From: Bacteroidales bacterium
Lineage (GTDB): Bacteria; Bacteroidota; Bacteroidia; Bacteroidales; UBA7960
Length of the DNA stretch: 8,024 bases
Direction: 5' to 3'
NCBI GenBank assembly: GCA_007132865.1
Contig: SLNU01000191.1
Coordinates: 1 to 8,024 of the forward strand
Position numbers and translations under genes: made by a program. The notes under the pieces are model-generated. The model had not been told where the DNA came from, did not search any database, and saw only the letters and a list, made by a program, of their open reading frames with translations. Of this stretch, positions 81-8,024 are shown piece after piece (the first letter of the stretch is position 1; every line of letters starts with the position of its first letter).

Positions 81-1184
81 TTATGCAGTCGCCGCATGTA
101 CGATACCGCATCTGCCGTTCTGATCACTACGAATTTGAGGCACTTGAATCGTGATCACTTTGAATTTGTTGACCATTCCACCTTCAGTTGTCCAGTGAAT
201 GTTCTGAATTCCAAACCCACGAACTAAGCGAACAACATCAGAAGTCATCTGCACCAACAAGCAATTATCATCAGCTAATGTATCAACGACTTTGATGCCC
301 TGAATCCCTCCGATCTTCATGATCCTTTCACGGATCGTAGTTCCAGGTGTAGTAGCATCATAATCTTTATCAAGAACTGTTTCATACTTCGTTGGGATGT
401 AGATCATCCACGGCCCATAATGAAAGTTGTTGATGCTTTCTTGTTTCCAAGACAAAACATCAGCAACAATATTCGCACCGGTTTTTGTAGAATCATCCCA
501 AGCAGTTGTCAAAACAACCTGATTGCGATCACCGAAATTCACATAACTTTTGATTGTTCCTCCGCCAAAGCTGTAATCAGTATCAGTGAAAAGCATATTT
601 TCAAGATACTCAGCGACTCTTCGAGCGGCACGTTCCGCAGATGTTGTATCTAACGGATTACCAAGACTACGCGATGCCTCAAGCACACGCAGATTGATCT
701 CATAATCAACGTGAATTATCGGGATGGGCAAATACACAGACTTGAACACAGGACGATCTCCTTGAGTGCGTGTAACAGCATCCATCGAAAGATCAGCCTC
801 CATCGCATCCCCAACAGTGTGATGTTCAAGCACTGTTGTTCCCATCGCATTCCCAAGATTATATGTAAGACCTTTATCGATCAAATCTTGAACACCGCCT
901 AAACGGTACTCAGCAATCGGCAAAATAGCCTCATCAAGTGCGAGCCATTCTTCACGACGAAGAACACCAGAATATGCGTTCGCATGTAAATTGATGGGTA
1001 CTTCACGATAACTTGATTCAAGTTTAGGATCTCCCTTCGTATATACAGTGGCGTACACGTTTCCGTCATCACCAAAATAAGGACGCATTAGCCCAACATT
1101 CAAACCGCCAGAACCATATACCCTTCCAGCAACCTCACCCTGCGCTTGTCCTTTTCCTAAAAAATCAACATTTATTTCAGCCAT
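81..1184 (-). CDS. Major capsid protein, HK97/encapsulin-like fold
   Basis: This 367-aa protein is the main building block of the phage head shell. The segment at residues 152-200, starting LPIPIIHVDYEINLR, with ASR at 170-172, NPLDT at 176-180 and a following helix ending ENMLF, is typical of encapsulin-like major capsid proteins (the DUF6260 type, from recall of the family). The N-terminal part at 75-106, LRREEW...GGVQDLIDKGL, also fits that family. No separate N-terminal scaffold domain is present, as expected since a scaffold is encoded two genes upstream. The start is fixed by an AAAGGAGG site 8 bases before the ATG. The gene follows the decoration protein gene by 27 bases and ends in TAA. 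The order protease, decoration, capsid supports the call independently of similarity. Confidence 0.93.
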   Translation of the reverse strand: MAEINVDFLGKGQAQGEVAGRVYGSGGLNVGLMRPYFGDDGNVYATVYTKGDPKLESSYREVPINLHANAYSGVLRREEWLALDEAILPIAEYRLGGVQDLIDKGLTYNLGNAMGTTVLEHHTVGDAMEADLSMDAVTRTQGDRPVFKSVYLPIPIIHVDYEINLRVLEASRSLGNPLDTTSAERAARRVAEYLENMLFTDTDYSFGGGTIKSYVNFGDRNQVVLTTAWDDSTKTGANIVADVLSWKQESINNFHYGPWMIYIPTKYETVLDKDYDATTPGTTIRERIMKIGGIQGIKVVDTLADDNCLLVQMTSDVVRLVRGFGIQNIHWTTEGGMVNKFKVITIQVPQIRSDQNGRCGIVHAATA

Positions 1185-1211: not shown

Positions 1212-1694
1212 TTAGATTATGCGAATTTTGATTCGACCTCCTTCATATGCATCCGCAGATTCTTCATATCCATCAGCCGTACTGTGTGAAAAATCAACAG
1301 CTTCGAGAGCGATGCCGACAACATTCTGCCGATCAACCCAGGACATAGCGCTTTCTTCATCAAAAACTTTCAAAGCACCATTACCCGCAGATGCCAATAA
1401 CGAACCTATCACAGCATTCTCGCCATGATCAAGTATCGCATATACTTCCTCACCACGCACCGCGACCCAACACTGAACCGGATCATTCTCTTCAAAAGCC
1501 TGTTCAATTGTTCTTCCACGAAGTTCATCCTCAAGTGCAAACATAGGAAGAACCGTGCCTGCATCAGATGCGTGTTTTTGTACCTTCCCAGCCGAATTCA
1601 ATTCGATGAGATGTCCAGGACTTAATGCCGCTGCCGCTTGGTACTCAACATTAATATCCACGTACTTTTTTAACTTAATTGTGTTTTTAGCCAT
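1212..1694 (-). CDS. Capsid decoration (cement) protein
   Basis: This 160-aa protein probably binds the outside of the expanded head and stabilises it. The pattern ALSPGHLIELNSAGKVQKH at residues 23-41, then LPMFALEDEL at 49-58, DPVQCWV at 71-77, GEEVYAIL at 81-88 and a terminal IKIRII strand matches small beta-rich phage head decoration proteins that sit between the protease/scaffold and the major capsid gene. The family resemblance is recalled, not searched. The start is set by AAAGGAGGT 8 bases upstream; this site overlaps the last codons of the protease-scaffold gene, whose TAA lies in the spacer, leaving a 5-base gap between the genes. No signal peptide or membrane segment is visible. 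An alternative would be a minor capsid accessory protein without a cement role. Confidence 0.85.
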   Translation of the reverse strand: MAKNTIKLKKYVDINVEYQAAAALSPGHLIELNSAGKVQKHASDAGTVLPMFALEDELRGRTIEQAFEENDPVQCWVAVRGEEVYAILDHGENAVIGSLLASAGNGALKVFDEESAMSWVDRQNVVGIALEAVDFSHSTADGYEESADAYEGGRIKIRII

Positions 1695-1699
1695 CGTTT

Positions 1700-2230
1700 T
1701 TACCTCCTTTCATTTTTGTTATTTTCTTCATTTTTATTTACCCGAAACCCCGGGGGCATTAATTTTCCACCTGACTTTGAAACTTTTTCAGTTGGCGTGA
1801 TTTCACCATTAACGGAATAATCTACCGGTGCTTTCACACTTTTCGCAACATCTTCAAGCAGATCAAAATCAAGGTTGCGCAATTTCTCTTCAGTCCAAAT
1901 TTCTTTGGCATGTGTGAGAATGTGTTTGATCAGATTTGATTTTTTATCGTTATAAAGTTTCTTCATAACTTTCATCATCTCTTGATCTTCAGGAGAAGCC
2001 TCAGCCAGCAATTCTTCATATGTTTTCATTTTTTCTGGCTCTTCTTTATTTACTTCTACAGCTTTCTCAACTTCTTTCTCTTCTTCGACTTCTCGTGGAA
2101 ACATTTTATCAAGTTGCGATTCCTCAAGAGTCAAAAGATACTCGCGATCTTCTTCTGCCCAATGTGTCGCTTTGTTAGCGATCAACTGAACAACTTTTTC
2201 AAGACAGCAAGGACTCTTTTTTTCTTCCAT
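1700..2230 (-). CDS. Nested in-frame scaffold protein (internal start of the protease gene)
   Basis: An ATG inside the protease-scaffold frame is preceded by AAAAGGAGG with a 5-base spacer, one of the best ribosome binding sites in the window, and would give a 176-aa protein. Its sequence begins MEEKKSPCCLEKVVQLIANK, continues with ATHWAEEDREYL, and is then strongly charged (EVEEEKEVEKAVEVNKEEPEK) before ending in a conserved-looking MPPGF near the C-terminus. The starting CC..KV..LI motif is one I recall from scaffold regions of related phages. The arrangement parallels lambda C/Nu3, where the scaffold is made separately from the 3' end of the protease gene. The product should fill the prohead interior and then be degraded. 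Independent expression is inferred from the ribosome binding site alone. Confidence 0.72.
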   Translation of the reverse strand: MEEKKSPCCLEKVVQLIANKATHWAEEDREYLLTLEESQLDKMFPREVEEEKEVEKAVEVNKEEPEKMKTYEELLAEASPEDQEMMKVMKKLYNDKKSNLIKHILTHAKEIWTEEKLRNLDFDLLEDVAKSVKAPVDYSVNGEITPTEKVSKSGGKLMPPGFRVNKNEENNKNERR

Positions 2231-3205
2231 TTTATCCTCCTTTTCTTTTTCGTTAGTATTAGCATTATTAACAACAGACTGTTCAGGTTTCCCTTTACGG
2301 CGAAACATATTAACCTGAACATAGTTTACTTCTCTTCGAACTTTGACAGGATCGCCAGAGAATTCAACTTTACTATCTACACTCTCGATATAGGATTGAC
2401 GATACATCGAGGTTTCATTATTCTCACGAACTCGAACTCGATAAACAAAAAAATCATCATATACTTCTTCAAGAAAATGATAACGATTTTCATTATCTAA
2501 CGAATCAAGTTTTCCTTGAATCTGCGACATCAATTCTTGATATCCTTGTTCATTAGCCATGATTGGAACGTACCCCTGTCGAGCGAGTTCCTTCATGACA
2601 TTAACAGCATCTGTATTCATCTCATTTGCATTCAGTTTTAAAATTTGTAATTTATTTACCCGTACACCGCAACCATCCTGCCACGAACACGCACCTCGCT
2701 CACCGGGCAAAAGTGCTAAATGATCAGGGCGATGATTACGAGCAACCGCTATATAATGTTCACCGTTATACTCACCTGCGATAGGCTCGTCCTCGGTGAA
2801 CACTCCAACACTCACCTCAAGTTGTCGTCCCTGCCTTATATACGACAAAGCTGTAGGTGAGATCGCAAGAAGTTTCTGTTCATCCAACCACGCTTCCGCT
2901 TTTAATTTTCGATCGCTCATATGTGCATTGAAAATCTGACCAACGGATCTTTCCAACTGAGCAGGACTGTTTGCTGAAACATAACGTCCGTTCTCTTGTG
3001 GATGTCCAATCGTAACCGGATGTCCATTCCATGTGTGTGCCATTCTGCCTAAATCTTCTGATGTATGCAGTAATGGCCCTGCACTTCCGCTGTGAACACC
3101 TTCTACCATCATAACAACCGGAACGACCAAATATTTCTTACCTTGGTAAGTCCTCGTCTGTATCTGATAATCAGCGGTAGTTGTTGAATGTGTTTGAATT
3201 TCCAT
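1700..3205 (-). CDS. Prohead protease fused to scaffold (DUF2213-type)
   Basis: This protein of about 501 aa combines a head maturation protease with the capsid scaffold. Residues 1 to about 180 match DUF2213-type phage proteases: NGHP (His62) and a second GHP (His68), EVSVGV with candidate nucleophile Ser132, and NHRPDHLALLPGERG (His158, His162). These recall the His/Ser dyad of S78-like prohead proteases, but the catalytic assignment is inference. A middle region at about 193-308 includes EEVYDDFFVYRVR and DPVKVRREVNYV and is seen in other phage protease-scaffold proteins. Residues 326-501 are Lys/Glu-rich and mostly helical, as expected of a scaffold. I chose the ATG at 3205, two bases after the upstream TGA. 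A TTG at 3211 overlaps that TGA and would add two residues. Neither has a good ribosome binding site, so coupling is likely. Confidence 0.86.
   Translation of the reverse strand: MEIQTHSTTTADYQIQTRTYQGKKYLVVPVVMMVEGVHSGSAGPLLHTSEDLGRMAHTWNGHPVTIGHPQENGRYVSANSPAQLERSVGQIFNAHMSDRKLKAEAWLDEQKLLAISPTALSYIRQGRQLEVSVGVFTEDEPIAGEYNGEHYIAVARNHRPDHLALLPGERGACSWQDGCGVRVNKLQILKLNANEMNTDAVNVMKELARQGYVPIMANEQGYQELMSQIQGKLDSLDNENRYHFLEEVYDDFFVYRVRVRENNETSMYRQSYIESVDSKVEFSGDPVKVRREVNYVQVNMFRRKGKPEQSVVNNANTNEKEKEDKMEEKKSPCCLEKVVQLIANKATHWAEEDREYLLTLEESQLDKMFPREVEEEKEVEKAVEVNKEEPEKMKTYEELLAEASPEDQEMMKVMKKLYNDKKSNLIKHILTHAKEIWTEEKLRNLDFDLLEDVAKSVKAPVDYSVNGEITPTEKVSKSGGKLMPPGFRVNKNEENNKNERR
1703..1710 (-). promoter_or_regulatory. 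Strong ribosome binding site of the decoration protein gene
   Basis: AAAGGAGG lies 8 bases before the ATG at 1694. It sits within the last codons of the protease-scaffold gene, and the TAA stop of that gene (1702-1700) falls in the spacer. A ribosome ending upstream therefore stops almost on top of this start. Confidence 0.85.
2236..2244 (-). promoter_or_regulatory. Internal ribosome binding site for the nested scaffold
   Basis: AAAAGGAGG lies 5 bases before the in-frame ATG at 2230. The surrounding codons read EKEKEDK, so Lys/Glu codons could produce an AGGAGG-like run by chance. However, the match is complete, the spacing is right, and the break falls exactly between the protease half and the scaffold half. 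Confidence 0.72.
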
Positions 3206-3207
3206 TT

Positions 3208-3387
3208 TCAATCTTTTATCGGTTCATATGTATAATTACCTGTTTGTTCTTCATGAATCTTTGAATGATCATCATCACCGAACAAAATCTCATCAGGAAC
3301 ATCTTGATTAGGGAATGCAGGACAACGCAGCGTTTCTTGATCAAAATGTTTACAAGTAAAGCAAATTGGTTTCAAATGTAAAGTCAT
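3208..3387 (-). CDS. Small Cys-containing phage protein, 59 aa
   Basis: The frame encodes a 59-residue protein that begins MTLHLKPICFTCKHFD and ends EPIKD. It has CxxC (Cys9, Cys12), His14 and Cys22, followed by PAFP and PDEILFG. Small proteins with this CxxC...C-AFP...P-EIL pattern commonly sit beside MuF genes in phage head modules; I recall the pattern, but their function is not known to me. The cysteines could bind zinc. The ATG overlaps the MuF stop codon as ATGA, and the TGA stop overlaps or abuts the protease start, so the gene fills exactly the gap between two real genes. There is no Shine-Dalgarno site, which suggests translational coupling. It is unlikely to be chance because both junctions are of operon type and the codons are normal. 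Confidence 0.78.
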   Translation of the reverse strand: MTLHLKPICFTCKHFDQETLRCPAFPNQDVPDEILFGDDDHSKIHEEQTGNYTYEPIKD

Positions 3388-5249
3388 AATTGAATTTTTA
3401 AGATTTTAAGAATTTGATTTTTCCATGTGTAGAAAGAACTGATTCCTTTCGTGCCATGTACAAAATTAACATAATATTCATTCATCATATCTTCAGCGAC
3501 TTCTGTGGCAAGTCCACGGGGTGTTGAAGATGTTAGATATTCAGCCCACGCTTCCGCAATCATTTCATGTTTCAAATGAACGGTGCGACCACCGGCAGTT
3601 GCACCATATTTACTTAAACGATCAGTAACGTGTTGAACACCTTTTGCATGTTCTCGATTAAAAACCATCATAAAATTACGTGTATTCTGAAAACCCAACA
3701 AAGCATCTACTTCATGTCCAAGTTCATGTGACATTATGAAACGAAAATCATCAGCACCCCTGGCCCACCATCCTGATCGATGATTATTCGCAACAATGCT
3801 GTTCATTGTATTAACATTACCACCGTAAACAGGATTCACATACACACCCGCATATTTATCAGGATTCCACACACCAGCACCTGACATTGATTGTGTTCCT
3901 CGTTTTGGCAAACTAAAAGCTACGACATCTTTTCCTACTCTTGGAACTTGATTATTCGCAAACTGCATTGCTTGTTTTTTTGCGTATTCAACTCCCATCA
4001 ATTGTTCGATTTTTTTATAACGATCTGATTTTTGATAATACAAATAAGCATCATTTTTCAGTGCTTTAATCATTGCTGAGGAACTCCCATAACCATTCAT
4101 TTTCACTTCGGGCATTATTTGTTTCATTTGAAACATCGTTTGATTCATTTGATTCGCAATATCTAAATCAAGTTTATCAAAATCAACAAAATCAACATCA
4201 AGATTCTTTTTCGCCCACTCGGCCGCCTCTTTGCGATTTTTAGCAGGATGAAACTCCGCTGTTTCAGGTATCTCCTCAATCGTATCTTCTTCCTGCAATA
4301 TATCTTCATCTTCTTCTGCGACAGGAATTGAAATACAACGGCAATTTGGATGAACCGGTATTAAATTCTCAATTTCCTCAAGTGTGTAAATGCGTCCTTG
4401 CAAAGATGCACATTTTTCACATACATCTAAATCATCAGTCGTTACGAACTCCGCTTTTACTTTTACTCCTGCTACTGCCCAATTACGATACTCTTGAACC
4501 ATGCCTTGATGGTGTGCGCGAATTACTTCTGTTCTTGCAATCATTTGTGCACGTCTACGGGCTGGAATGAATCTCCCTAATGTGTCTGTAATGCCAAGGT
4601 CACCTGATCGCGTACCTGTGATTACAGCATTCATTTTCCGTGCTAATAACTGTGGCCCGTCACCATTCATAATACCTGCTGAAAGTGTGCGACTAATTTG
4701 TGTACTCATCGTAGCAGTGACACCTTTCAACTCCTCAAATACGCGTGTGTACAAAACACCAACACGATCAATATGAAATGGTGTACTCATCGAGGCAGAT
4801 ATACCGCCTGTGCGGTCTAAACTTGGAACAGCAAGTCCGGCTCGTTTCATCTCATATCGTGAACGAATCACACCTCGTTTGTAGCTATCCTCAACATAGA
4901 GATTCGTCCATGGTTCTTCAATAGCTACACCTATTTGAGGTCGTTGCGAGAGTGTTAATAATTCACGATCCGTTAAATCTTCTAACCATTTCATAAAAGA
5001 ATCAACTTTATCTTGTGATCGTGGAAAATCAAACGCACGACGTGCCAACATTACTTGCGGATCTTTTAAACCAAATACATCTAAATCAACTATCGCTTTT
5101 TTAATCTCACTGTTCAATTTATTAAATCGCTTGTTCATCTGAGAAACAAAGGCATTACGAAGCATAGTCGTACGAGTAGGATCATACCTATTTACACGTT
5201 GTGTTACTAACCGTGCTGATTTATAATTCATACGTTTAAATGCTTTCAT
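3384..5249 (-). CDS. MuF-like minor head protein with C-terminal metallopeptidase-like domain
   Basis: This 621-aa protein has two parts. Residues 1 to about 310 form a Mu gpF-like minor head protein: WTNLYVEDSYKRG (114-126), FEELKGVT (171-178), ARTEVIRAHH (238-247), and the putative zinc-binding set Cys277-x2-Cys280 with HPNCRC (His300, Cys303, Cys305). Such proteins bind near the portal and help head assembly. An acidic linker follows (EEDEDILQEEDTIEEIPE, about 312-329). Residues from about 333 to 621 form a second domain with MSHELGHEVD (His508, Glu509, His512) and HEMIAEAWAEY, where Glu562 or Glu566 could be the third zinc ligand of a gluzincin-type metallopeptidase. C-terminal enzyme or toxin domains on MuF proteins are known from temperate phages; this one may act on host or capsid proteins. 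The ATG overlaps the portal stop as ATGA. Start at Met7 is less likely. Confidence 0.93.
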   Translation of the reverse strand: MKAFKRMNYKSARLVTQRVNRYDPTRTTMLRNAFVSQMNKRFNKLNSEIKKAIVDLDVFGLKDPQVMLARRAFDFPRSQDKVDSFMKWLEDLTDRELLTLSQRPQIGVAIEEPWTNLYVEDSYKRGVIRSRYEMKRAGLAVPSLDRTGGISASMSTPFHIDRVGVLYTRVFEELKGVTATMSTQISRTLSAGIMNGDGPQLLARKMNAVITGTRSGDLGITDTLGRFIPARRRAQMIARTEVIRAHHQGMVQEYRNWAVAGVKVKAEFVTTDDLDVCEKCASLQGRIYTLEEIENLIPVHPNCRCISIPVAEEDEDILQEEDTIEEIPETAEFHPAKNRKEAAEWAKKNLDVDFVDFDKLDLDIANQMNQTMFQMKQIMPEVKMNGYGSSSAMIKALKNDAYLYYQKSDRYKKIEQLMGVEYAKKQAMQFANNQVPRVGKDVVAFSLPKRGTQSMSGAGVWNPDKYAGVYVNPVYGGNVNTMNSIVANNHRSGWWARGADDFRFIMSHELGHEVDALLGFQNTRNFMMVFNREHAKGVQHVTDRLSKYGATAGGRTVHLKHEMIAEAWAEYLTSSTPRGLATEVAEDMMNEYYVNFVHGTKGISSFYTWKNQILKILKIQL

Positions 5250-6631
5250 TCTTCTTGATCTTCTTGTTCTTCTTCTTGCTGTTGTGCAATGCGCTCAATC
5301 ATTGATTCATCTTTTATCAATGCATCTCGCATCTCTTCAATTAAATCTATTTCATCTTGCGATAAACCAAGGAAAAGTTCATAAAATGCCGCAGGCGGAA
5401 TAACATATTCAGCATTTGGATTTGTTAAATACTCACGTAATGCTTGTGCTCGTGTCTTGCCTACTTCAGCTTTATCTTTATCACTGACAGAAAATAAATC
5501 TTGCCATAATACAGAGAATGTTTCATCAGGTGCTACAATGATTGATAACTCAACACACTTATTAATAAATGGACGAATGATTCCTTGTTCTGCGAATTCT
5601 TCTCGACGCTGTTGTATGAAAGTGTTCCAATGCTCGGTGTCTTGAGATGATGCTAATTCACCACGTTCAGAACCCGTCAACACACGTTTCGGAATTCCTG
5701 TTTCTGCGCTAATCATCATTATTTGAACATCGACATGATTACTTGGATCTTCGATTTGCGATTGCAATGCTTTTAATTCTACACCTTCAGCAGTGATTAA
5801 TCGGCGCAGTGCGTGTTCATACTCCTCCCACTGCTCCTCTAACCGCTCTCGTTCTTGAACACCTAAAGAAAAATTCTCCGTATCAACGACACCTTGATAA
5901 CCTGGTCGTGCTCCTTTCCAAAACATTTCAGCAGAACCACCGATTAACTTTTCAAGATCAATTAAACGATTATAAACGACTTCAAGTCTTGGTGTTCCTA
6001 AAATTTCACTATCAAGCTGTCCATCTACGACATGCATCAATCGTGAATGATGAACAAAAACCGGAGTAACTTTTGTACTATCGCCACCATTTAGCGTTAG
6101 TTTAATAACATATAATTCAGGTTGTCCGTATCTCTCATCTCGTGGATCTTCAACAAAAGAATGAATTTCTACGAGATCCTCACCAAACGGACGAACATAC
6201 AATAATTCAGAACTTTTAATAACAGGTCGTCGTAAGTCCTCTAATTGTGATGCATCATTGAGGCCGAAAAACAGCACACCGAATCTTCCAAGACCAACAA
6301 GTTTATCAAGGCGGATAAATTTAGTTCGTAATTTTAATCGCTTCTCAAGTTCTTTCCATTGTTTCTCAAACTGTGTTTCTTTATCATCATCTGATTCAAT
6401 GAGTATCAGGGGGCCTCTCCAGCAGTCCTTAATCGGACGATCAATAATAGCTTTAGCCATATCTTGACGTTTATACTGTTGCCAATAATCAGCATACCCT
6501 AATTCTCGTTTATAACCATAAAGTTTATATAGATCACGATCGCCTGAATATTGCATTCCCAACATTGACGCTAATCGCATCCGTGTGATTAATTCACTGT
6601 TTACTTGTGGTGTGTTGTTTTGTTTTTTCAT
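5246..6631 (-). CDS. Phage portal protein (DUF1073 type)
   Basis: The 461-aa product should form the dodecameric ring at one vertex of the head through which DNA is packaged and ejected. Features fitting DUF1073-type portals are DMAKAIIDRPIKDCWRG (57-73), KLVGLGRFGVLFFGL (110-124), VHHSRLMHVVDG (194-204) and AETGIPKRVLTGSERGELAS (309-328), the last being the usual portal signature before the clip and crown region. The C-terminus is helical and ends in an acidic Glu/Gln tail. The DUF1073 family is sometimes labelled 'anti-CBASS Acb1 family' in databases; the length, motifs and place directly before a MuF gene all point to a portal. The start lies 4 bases after the upstream stop without a clear ribosome binding site. 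The stop overlaps the next ATG. Confidence 0.94.
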   Translation of the reverse strand: MKKQNNTPQVNSELITRMRLASMLGMQYSGDRDLYKLYGYKRELGYADYWQQYKRQDMAKAIIDRPIKDCWRGPLILIESDDDKETQFEKQWKELEKRLKLRTKFIRLDKLVGLGRFGVLFFGLNDASQLEDLRRPVIKSSELLYVRPFGEDLVEIHSFVEDPRDERYGQPELYVIKLTLNGGDSTKVTPVFVHHSRLMHVVDGQLDSEILGTPRLEVVYNRLIDLEKLIGGSAEMFWKGARPGYQGVVDTENFSLGVQERERLEEQWEEYEHALRRLITAEGVELKALQSQIEDPSNHVDVQIMMISAETGIPKRVLTGSERGELASSQDTEHWNTFIQQRREEFAEQGIIRPFINKCVELSIIVAPDETFSVLWQDLFSVSDKDKAEVGKTRAQALREYLTNPNAEYVIPPAAFYELFLGLSQDEIDLIEEMRDALIKDESMIERIAQQQEEEQEDQEE

Positions 6632-6959: not shown

Positions 6960-8024
6960 TTAATAATTATTAAATGTCATATCTATTATTTCATCATCTT
7001 CTTTACTCATATGCACTGTTTCATCGTCTTGAACGTCTGTGATGTTTACACTTCGTTGCCACTCCTCTGTTTGAACCAAATTACACTCGAAATGCTGTGT
7101 TTCATTACTCAGAGACGATTCAACAGTTAATTTGACAGCAACACTACTACTAAATATCTGTGATGCATTAGAGGCCGTTATTTCCGCTAAAATTTCAGCC
7201 GTCTGGTTAATTGAAAGAACTTGTGTTGCATTTGTAAGATCAATTTGCACATCTCGTTGCTCAACATCTGCATCAGCATTAAATGATTGTGCTGTGTTTG
7301 TGATCTCAGCACTCGTCACAATGTGAACAGCGGTTTCTGCATCAAATTGTTGCGATGTATTAATGATGCCTGATTCTACGCTGATTTCTACAGTTGCTTG
7401 TGAATTAAACGCCTGAACGGTGTTTGATATTGTAGCAGTATTCGTTACTTCAACATTAGTTTCACTCGCAAATGTCTGTTGATCATTACTTAACTCTGTT
7501 TCTATTGTTGACTCTTGAACAGAAGATTCAGCGGCAAATGTCTGTTGTTCATTTGTGATCGTGCTTTCAAGAGATGCTTCTGCTGTAGATTCCGCAGCAA
7601 AGCTTTGATCACTATTCTCTAAATTCGCCATGATTTGCGAACCCTCGAGTAATGAACCATTAAATACCTGCCCTGTATTCGTAAGTGCAGATTGCACACT
7701 GACTTCATTTGTAATAGTGCTTTCAAAAGATTGCACTCCATTCGTAAGTGCAGATTGCACACTGACTTCATTTGTACTTTCAGAAGTGAAAGACTGACCA
7801 GCATTTGTAAGATTTGCAGTTACAGAACTAACAGGTGTTTCTAATAGTGATGCATTAAATAACTGACCAGTGTTTACAAGATTACTTTCAGCACTGACTT
7901 CATTTGTACTTTCAGAAGTGAATGACTGTACTGTATTTGTAAGAGTGCTTTCAACATTGACTTCATTTGTGCTTTCAGAAGTGAATGACTGACCAGTGTT
8001 TACAAGATTACTTTCAGCACTGAC
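6960..8024 (-). CDS. Repeat-rich structural or fibre-like protein (partial, start missing)
   Basis: The frame is open to the right edge, so only the last 354 residues are visible; the GTG at 7760 is not the start, because codons continue in frame to 8024. The protein consists of 15 visible repeats of 21-23 residues, each centred on N-x-x-Q-x-F (14 copies exact, one with Leu) and usually preceded by ES.LT and followed by an ES..EVSV-like strand. Composition is rich in Ser, Thr, Asn, Gln and Glu, with one Cys and almost no aromatic residues except the repeat Phe. Two short beta-strands per repeat suggest a beta-solenoid or fibre. The non-repeat tail, from EEWQRSVNITDV onward, is acidic. Its place in front of the portal suggests a virion protein, such as a head fibre or adhesin, but no enzyme or known domain is recognisable. 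Confidence 0.85.
   Translation of the reverse strand, partial: VSAESNLVNTGQSFTSESTNEVNVESTLTNTVQSFTSESTNEVSAESNLVNTGQLFNASLLETPVSSVTANLTNAGQSFTSESTNEVSVQSALTNGVQSFESTITNEVSVQSALTNTGQVFNGSLLEGSQIMANLENSDQSFAAESTAEASLESTITNEQQTFAAESSVQESTIETELSNDQQTFASETNVEVTNTATISNTVQAFNSQATVEISVESGIINTSQQFDAETAVHIVTSAEITNTAQSFNADADVEQRDVQIDLTNATQVLSINQTAEILAEITASNASQIFSSSVAVKLTVESSLSNETQHFECNLVQTEEWQRSVNITDVQDDETVHMSKEDDEIIDMTFNNY
7677..7776 (-). repeat. Pair of identical 37-base direct repeats, 63 bases apart
   Basis: Positions 7677-7713 and 7740-7776 are identical over 37 bases and are offset by exactly 63 bases, one repeat unit. They encode the same stretch, TNEVSVQSALTN. Such identity in both copies, including silent positions, points to a recent duplication. 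Confidence 0.88.
7862..8024 (-). repeat. Pair of identical 37-base direct repeats, 126 bases apart
   Basis: Positions 7862-7898 and 7988-8024 are identical over at least 37 bases with an offset of 126 bases, two repeat units. They encode VSAESNLVNTGQ. The match runs to the window edge and may be longer. Confidence 0.85.

Follow-up and report, generated by a model that had tools for sequence, protein, structure and literature searches.

The gene for a 621-residue MuF minor head protein, in an 8,024-nt stretch of DNA from a Bacteroidales bacterium (contig SLNU01000191.1; the whole stretch is called the window here), raises two connected questions: what the long region behind the MuF domain does, and whether the 59-aa protein encoded directly after it, here called p59, belongs to the phage head or to that region. 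The genes follow one another in the order portal, MuF, p59, DUF2213/phrog_760, decoration-like and major capsid-like. The portal gene overlaps the start of the MuF gene, and the MuF stop codon overlaps the p59 start codon in an ATGA. The features are as follows.

5246..6631, minus strand: portal protein, directly upstream of the MuF gene (Phage_portal_3, E 7.1e-37)
3384..5249, minus strand: MuF minor head protein with predicted C-terminal metallopeptidase, 621 aa (open reading frame and Phage_Mu_F match)
4332..4700, minus strand: Phage_Mu_F domain, residues 184-306 (PF04233, E 4.9e-14; TIGR01641 of NCBIfam, E 2.8e-12)
4254..4319, minus strand: acidic linker, residues 311-332 (sequence)
3387..4253, minus strand: predicted M34 (ATLF/PPEP)-like metallopeptidase domain, residues 333-621
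3714..3728, minus strand: HELGH, residues 508-512, with predicted zinc ligands H508 and H512 and predicted base E509 (motif and invariance)
3606..3608, minus strand: Y548, predicted catalytic Tyr (invariant column in alignment A3)
3537..3569, minus strand: HEMIAEAWAEY, residues 561-571 (sequence)
3564..3566, minus strand: E562, predicted third zinc ligand, with E566 also invariant (Tyr-Glu spacing, compact homologues)
3208..3387, minus strand: p59, 59-aa CCCH protein, candidate cognate inhibitor or immunity protein (linkage to the peptidase)
1700..3211, minus strand: DUF2213/phrog_760 protein with weak similarity to head maturation proteases
1212..1694, minus strand: head decoration-like protein (phrog_766, E 1.8e-11)
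81..1184, minus strand: major capsid-like protein (DUF6260, E 8.6e-17; phrog_771, E 7.8e-19)

The window also holds, at 6960-7760 on the minus strand, a 266-aa open reading frame of repeated units of about 20 residues, xITNxxQxFxxE-like by eye, for which PHROG gave no match.

A predicted metallopeptidase domain on the MuF protein

The first-pass annotation had described a MuF domain, an acidic linker and a gluzincin-like metallopeptidase domain carrying HELGH and HEMIAEAWAEY, and all of these were found in the 621-aa open reading frame, with the acidic stretch following residue 310. Since shuffling the C-terminal part of the protein 20,000 times produced a HExxH in 1.6% of cases, the motif alone is weak and the relatives decide. 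We gathered relatives of the domain through shared 5-residue words, in two database searches. Homologues without a conserved HExxH were what the annotation had named as evidence against the domain; the motif is present in all 59 collected proteins, the window's included. The invariant columns of alignment A3 (58 rows; P0003, with its intein, omitted and the window's protein entered as its C-terminal domain) include H508, E509, G511, H512, D515, Y548, E562 and E566. Taken together, the shared motif and these columns show that the HExxH of the window's protein is not due to chance. By spacing, Y548 is predicted to be the catalytic Tyr and E562 the third ligand.

The AF2 model of residues 325-621 (mean pLDDT 95.0, pTM 0.91) has its best fold matches in the M34 (ATLF/PPEP) metallopeptidases, at 9-23% identity among the matches listed, and on the basis of fold, conservation and spacing the zinc ligands are predicted to meet. 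In Pfam, the MuF protein of the window matched only PF04233 and, weakly, DUF6251 (E 0.13), with no enzyme family; there was no match to PF07737 (ATLF) above its cut-off and none to the model for the MPTases of polyvalent proteins. PF07737 matches three of the 58 relatives (best E 0.0048), and L271 scores 26.3 bits with it at a cut-off of 27.4. The best hit of a PDB sequence search had an E of 0.066 with the protein and 1.3 with the profile. With the P0007 domain as query, tblastn at E 0.01 matched neither phage (50,697 records) nor plasmid sequences (72,556 records). This reflects a limit of sensitivity and not absence, since the search overlooked Flavobacterium phage lotta8, whose distant domain, one half of a related pair, was later found through p59. 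On the question of a temperate phage or prophage, bacterial genome contigs hold 31 relatives of the domain; the window itself is an 8-kb piece. Fold and catalytic conservation support the assignment of the MuF C-terminus as a predicted M34-like zinc metallopeptidase; the annotation had proposed a gluzincin-like one.

The annotation had also noted that such proteins can carry variable toxin or enzyme domains, and this holds here. MuF parts 43-56% identical to the window's occur with an ADP-ribosyltransferase-like C-terminus (L001, by eye; L011, PARP, E 3.1e-6), with another zincin (L002, ATLF, E 0.0075) or with no C-terminal domain, the MuF part standing alone (L004, L010); L003, with a frame break, was not judged, and L005-L009 have an intein inside MuF. 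The peptidase family is found on very different MuF parts as well. Varied C-termini on one MuF part and the peptidase on varied MuF parts mark the domain as a module. Two different peptidases sit on MuF parts 100% identical to that of P0002, one in L270 and one in L271, and a p59 comes after both. Two further kinds of HExxH domain occur on MuF proteins without p59 (L264-L267, L273, L275), one M78-like (L264, E 0.0035) and the other of the HETGHFLD type. By eye, the inteins in the MuF genes of L005-L009 and P0003 sit at a conserved HPNC[RY]C motif, and that of L005-L009 contains an endonuclease-like insert.

Linkage of p59 to the peptidase domain

The survey covered 111 loci that encode relatives of the domain, 31 in bacterial genomes and 80 on viral contigs (80 of 120 kept), some of them near-identical. 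The loci were found through motif patterns, so their motif conservation is not independent evidence. In the window's own subfamily (21 loci, some near-identical, L056 ending at the stop), p59 lies at the stop codon, within 300 nt after it, in all 20 loci with room, and outside this subfamily a same-strand p59 follows 5 of 90 peptidase genes. A further arrangement accounts for 20 of the 111: p59 lies on the opposite strand, and the distance between its 3′ end and the peptidase stop is roughly -28 to +12 nt. Overall, the slot after the peptidase holds p59 in 45 loci (25 same strand, 20 opposite), a family of about 50 aa (p50) in 31, a family of about 58 aa (p58) in 11 and none of the three in 24, one of which is L056; two small families together in one slot were never seen among the 111 loci.

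Both p50 and p58 occupy the slot of other peptidase subfamilies. The former (..EF..KAKE.GYT.E.I...) comes right after the peptidase stop, for example in L014, L015, L022, L066 and L089, and is a candidate second partner family. The latter (DVYYSLDDALEVAKEFPELEKGVL) starts 31-37 nt before the stop (L071, L080, L081, L083, L087, L102, L108, L122) and is a candidate third.

The reverse scan searched viral contigs with the p59 cysteine pattern only, blind to neighbours, and yielded 109 stretches. In the first 80 of these, 77 hits scored as p59 and formed 51 clusters at 90% identity, 44 of which adjoin an upstream HExxH open reading frame (-25 to +8 nt). Of the seven that remain, L157 breaks off upstream but retains a peptidase-like tail, L148 is a p59-peptidase fusion, and at L147/L180, L150 and L161 the neighbour is a convergent MuF gene of another domain; no peptidase neighbour was found for L205 and L177. 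Over all loci collected, with the other 29 stretches and repeat contigs included, 126 of 160 p59 hits have an adjacent same-strand HExxH frame, 5 lie too near a contig end and 29 lack such a frame despite more than 400 nt upstream. These 29 comprise 19 convergent peptidase loci, 5 convergent with another MuF domain, and L226, L205 (two), L126 and L129 (20 bits, doubtful). A single-protein search for p59 loci yielded one doubtful locus, L123.

Four MuF backbones (the window's, P0006's, lotta8's and P0002's) permitted matched comparisons. On these backbones p59 follows seven of seven M34-like fusions (the window, L002, L235/L061, L262, L263, L270 and L271), whereas the 49 other MuF genes, which fall into 33 clusters at 90%, never have a p59 behind them on the same strand. 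The latter divide into six with other HExxH domains (L264-L267, L273, L275; p59 in none) and 43 without HExxH (same-strand p59 in none; L277 has a convergent one). With the negatives clustered, Fisher's test gives 5e-8, or 4e-7 if L277 is counted as positive. The comparison omits L003, L007 and L009 (frame break, no room, or repeat of L005) and L254, L261, L272 and L282 (cut off); three negatives that were kept, L279, L283 and L284, have 93-344 nt after the stop, within which a p59 with the usual overlap would start.

An empty site is provided by L236, whose short MuF gene lacks HExxH and overlaps the start of the next gene with its stop. Against L236, IMGVR 3300046323_000172, the ends of which are L235 and L061, shows 95.5% identity as far as the end of MuF and 97.3% from the next gene onward; the approximately 1,028 nt between these flanks, absent from L236, encode the peptidase domain and p59. 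Co-divergence gave the same picture. In partial Mantel tests (Spearman) on 73 non-redundant pairs, p59 distances correlate with peptidase distances given MuF (r 0.565, permutation p 0.001), and p59 with MuF given the peptidase gives r -0.006 (p 0.52), a figure weakened by the probable saturation of MuF distances between unrelated backbones. By these sequence comparisons p59 tracks the peptidase domain and not the head module or the MuF part, and the best reading is that peptidase domain and p59 form one swappable cassette.

Five residues of p59 are invariant in 80 rows: C9, C12, C22, A24 and H41. The C-C-C-H set suggests a zinc-knuckle-like fold; the predicted model (pLDDT 87.7, pTM 0.69) has little regular structure, and Foldseek returned no match for it in the PDB. 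The p59 of the window matched no family in Pfam, NCBIfam or PHROG, and three relatives match phrog_33375, a family of unknown function. The one PADLOC match (E 0.036) was discarded. Eight proteins of one family, P0060 and seven database proteins (P0060-P0067; p59 part 75-100% identical), unite both partners in one chain, with p59 N-terminal and HEFGH with Y-x6-E-GYAEAFSFY C-terminal.

The role of p59

We lean, with modest confidence, towards an effector/inhibitor cassette in which an exchangeable M34-like peptidase rides on MuF and p59 is its cognate partner. The MuF part would place the peptidase in or on the capsid, and the enzyme would enter the next host cell together with the DNA and cut a protein of that cell. 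In the producing cell, p59 made from the overlapping gene would bind the peptidase and keep it inactive, so p59 is probably an inhibitor that protects the phage-producing cell. Where it lies on the opposite strand, p59 might be expressed independently of the head genes, which a lysogen would need for its immunity; where the gene is coupled to late head genes, protection of a lysogen is not obvious.

The main rival, to which we give an appreciable but minor chance, is that p59 is a helper that aids folding, head loading or target finding, whether as a chaperone, as an adaptor for packaging or as a subunit delivered along with the peptidase. The gene overlap, the near-constant pairing in the window's subfamily, the co-divergence and the natural fusion fit this equally well. 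For an immunity protein, fusion to the peptidase would be unusual, and the fused p59 suits the role of a built-in regulator or subunit just as well. However, in other peptidase subfamilies different small families take this slot, never more than one per locus among the 111, as immunity proteins would be expected to do, and the 20 loci with p59 against the head-gene direction would uncouple it from assembly.

In the window's subfamily the two genes are inseparable, as expected of an immunity protein: p59 follows the peptidase in 20 of 20 loci, and the empty site lacks both. Across the wider family p59 occupies the slot in 45 of 111 loci, and orphans exist. Among 295 genomes from the order of L040's genome there are nine p59 matches. 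Three adjoin a peptidase gene by script, and a fourth, L291, was assigned likewise through its identity to the p59 of L034, next to which the peptidase frame is short; five of nine (six by script alone) have no peptidase neighbour within 3-kb pieces. Brevibacillus phage Jenst (L126) has a p59-like gene in its replication region. A tandem pair of overlapping p59-like genes lies at L205:8164-8587 with no peptidase adjoining. At six loci (L147, L180, L150, L161, L125, L277), p59 is convergent with a MuF gene whose C-terminal domain is of a non-HExxH kind, E..THNHP..SFSxxD, for which Pfam gave at most DUF4329 (E 0.026, L150) and which is JAB-like by motif only.

The annotation had offered processing of capsid proteins as an alternative to delivery, and in favour of a head maturation protease stands PHROG 595, which bears that label and whose profile spans MuF and such a domain in P0007. 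We rejected this reading as highly improbable. The MuF proteins of all 24 complete P0006-backbone relatives lack HExxH, one of them with 88% identity in the MuF part, and L236, with flanks 95-97% identical, is one of the 24. Moreover, the head module of the window has its own DUF2213 gene with weak similarity to maturation proteases, and the alternative C-termini include ADP-ribosyltransferase-like ones.

Least credible of all is that p59 is an ordinary head-module gene paired with the peptidase only by shared ancestry of gene order: it does sit in the head module here and p59-like orphans exist, but we rejected this on the matched backbones, where a same-strand p59 is missing from 49 of 49 relatives without an M34-like domain, and its correlation with the MuF part vanishes given the peptidase and both genes are missing from L236. 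The annotation, which saw no obvious immunity gene and thought the 59-aa protein a weak candidate of a type found in phage head modules, is reversed on this point, and its interpretation as a whole is partly supported.

Returning to the effector/inhibitor cassette, a broader version is conceivable, though we regard it as doubtful: p59 would be the first member of a class, small zinc-knuckle proteins with a general inhibitory action on phage-delivered metallopeptidases. They would guard producers against the MuF-fused M34-like enzymes and against the second, unrelated E..THNHP..SFSxxD kind, be exchanged as a cassette, sometimes act as a built-in pro-domain and persist in bacteria as orphan immunity genes.

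Comparison with known systems

The domain class is already known; the p59 partner is the new part and the more interesting half. In the titles, abstracts and passages that our comparison covers, we found no description of this pair and no MuF-fused protease to which an immunity partner has been assigned. With the cassette of enzyme and partner defined, and a near-identical relative that lacks it, the benefit of head-protein enzyme domains becomes directly testable. If p59 does inhibit the enzyme, it would add a compact inhibitor to those known for metallopeptidases and could serve as a marker when such effectors are sought.

Among the C-terminal toxin domains in the passages of Zhang et al. 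2012 (PMC3482391) are HExxH peptidases, one of them lethal-factor-like and listed with the immunity family Imm-SuFu; the table rows concerned list other delivery systems, unlike the MuF fusion here. The M34 (ATLF/PPEP) enzymes share the fold, the HExxH and the order of Tyr and Glu with our domain, and differ in the low identity (9-23% among the matches listed), the unmatched Pfam ATLF profile and the fusion to a phage head protein. Imm-SuFu is, by its name, not known to be a small CCCH protein.

The zincin-like MPTases of polyvalent proteins are described in passages of Iyer et al. 2017 (PMC5512222) as phage-delivered with predicted host or self targets. One clade has an Asp three residues past HExxH, like D515 here, whereas the conserved strand 2 His of that clade has no counterpart among the A3 invariant columns. 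A phage-derived metzincin of Listeria and its TIMP-like partner (PMC8235301) share with our locus a phage-related metalloprotease gene that adjoins the gene of an inhibitor-like protein; there, the protease is secreted, the partner is a lipoprotein and the protease is reported to cleave it.

Precedents come from MuF toxins with adjacent immunity proteins, namely Bxa with Bsi/BAH (PMC11699363) and Apk2 (PMC12226406). As proposed for the pair in the window, they combine a toxin fused to MuF with small immunity proteins encoded next to it, one of which is reported to work through direct binding. Bxa is an ADP-ribosyltransferase and Apk2 a (p)ppApp synthetase, both bench-tested, whereas our pair is a predicted protease and its partner known from sequence. 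As a group, MuF polymorphic toxins are recognized by an N-terminal MuF domain, a portal gene upstream, a variable C-terminus and a small open reading frame downstream, all of which the window has. Jamet et al. 2017 (PMC5576092) report a small frame after 89.4% of 191 toxin-bearing muf genes and after 25.5% of 952 short ones, and a metallopeptidase domain in 20% of the 191 putative toxins. In the passages of that paper the partner family for the metallopeptidase type goes unnamed; in our case, empty-site, matched-backbone and co-divergence tests link a single homologous partner to the domain.
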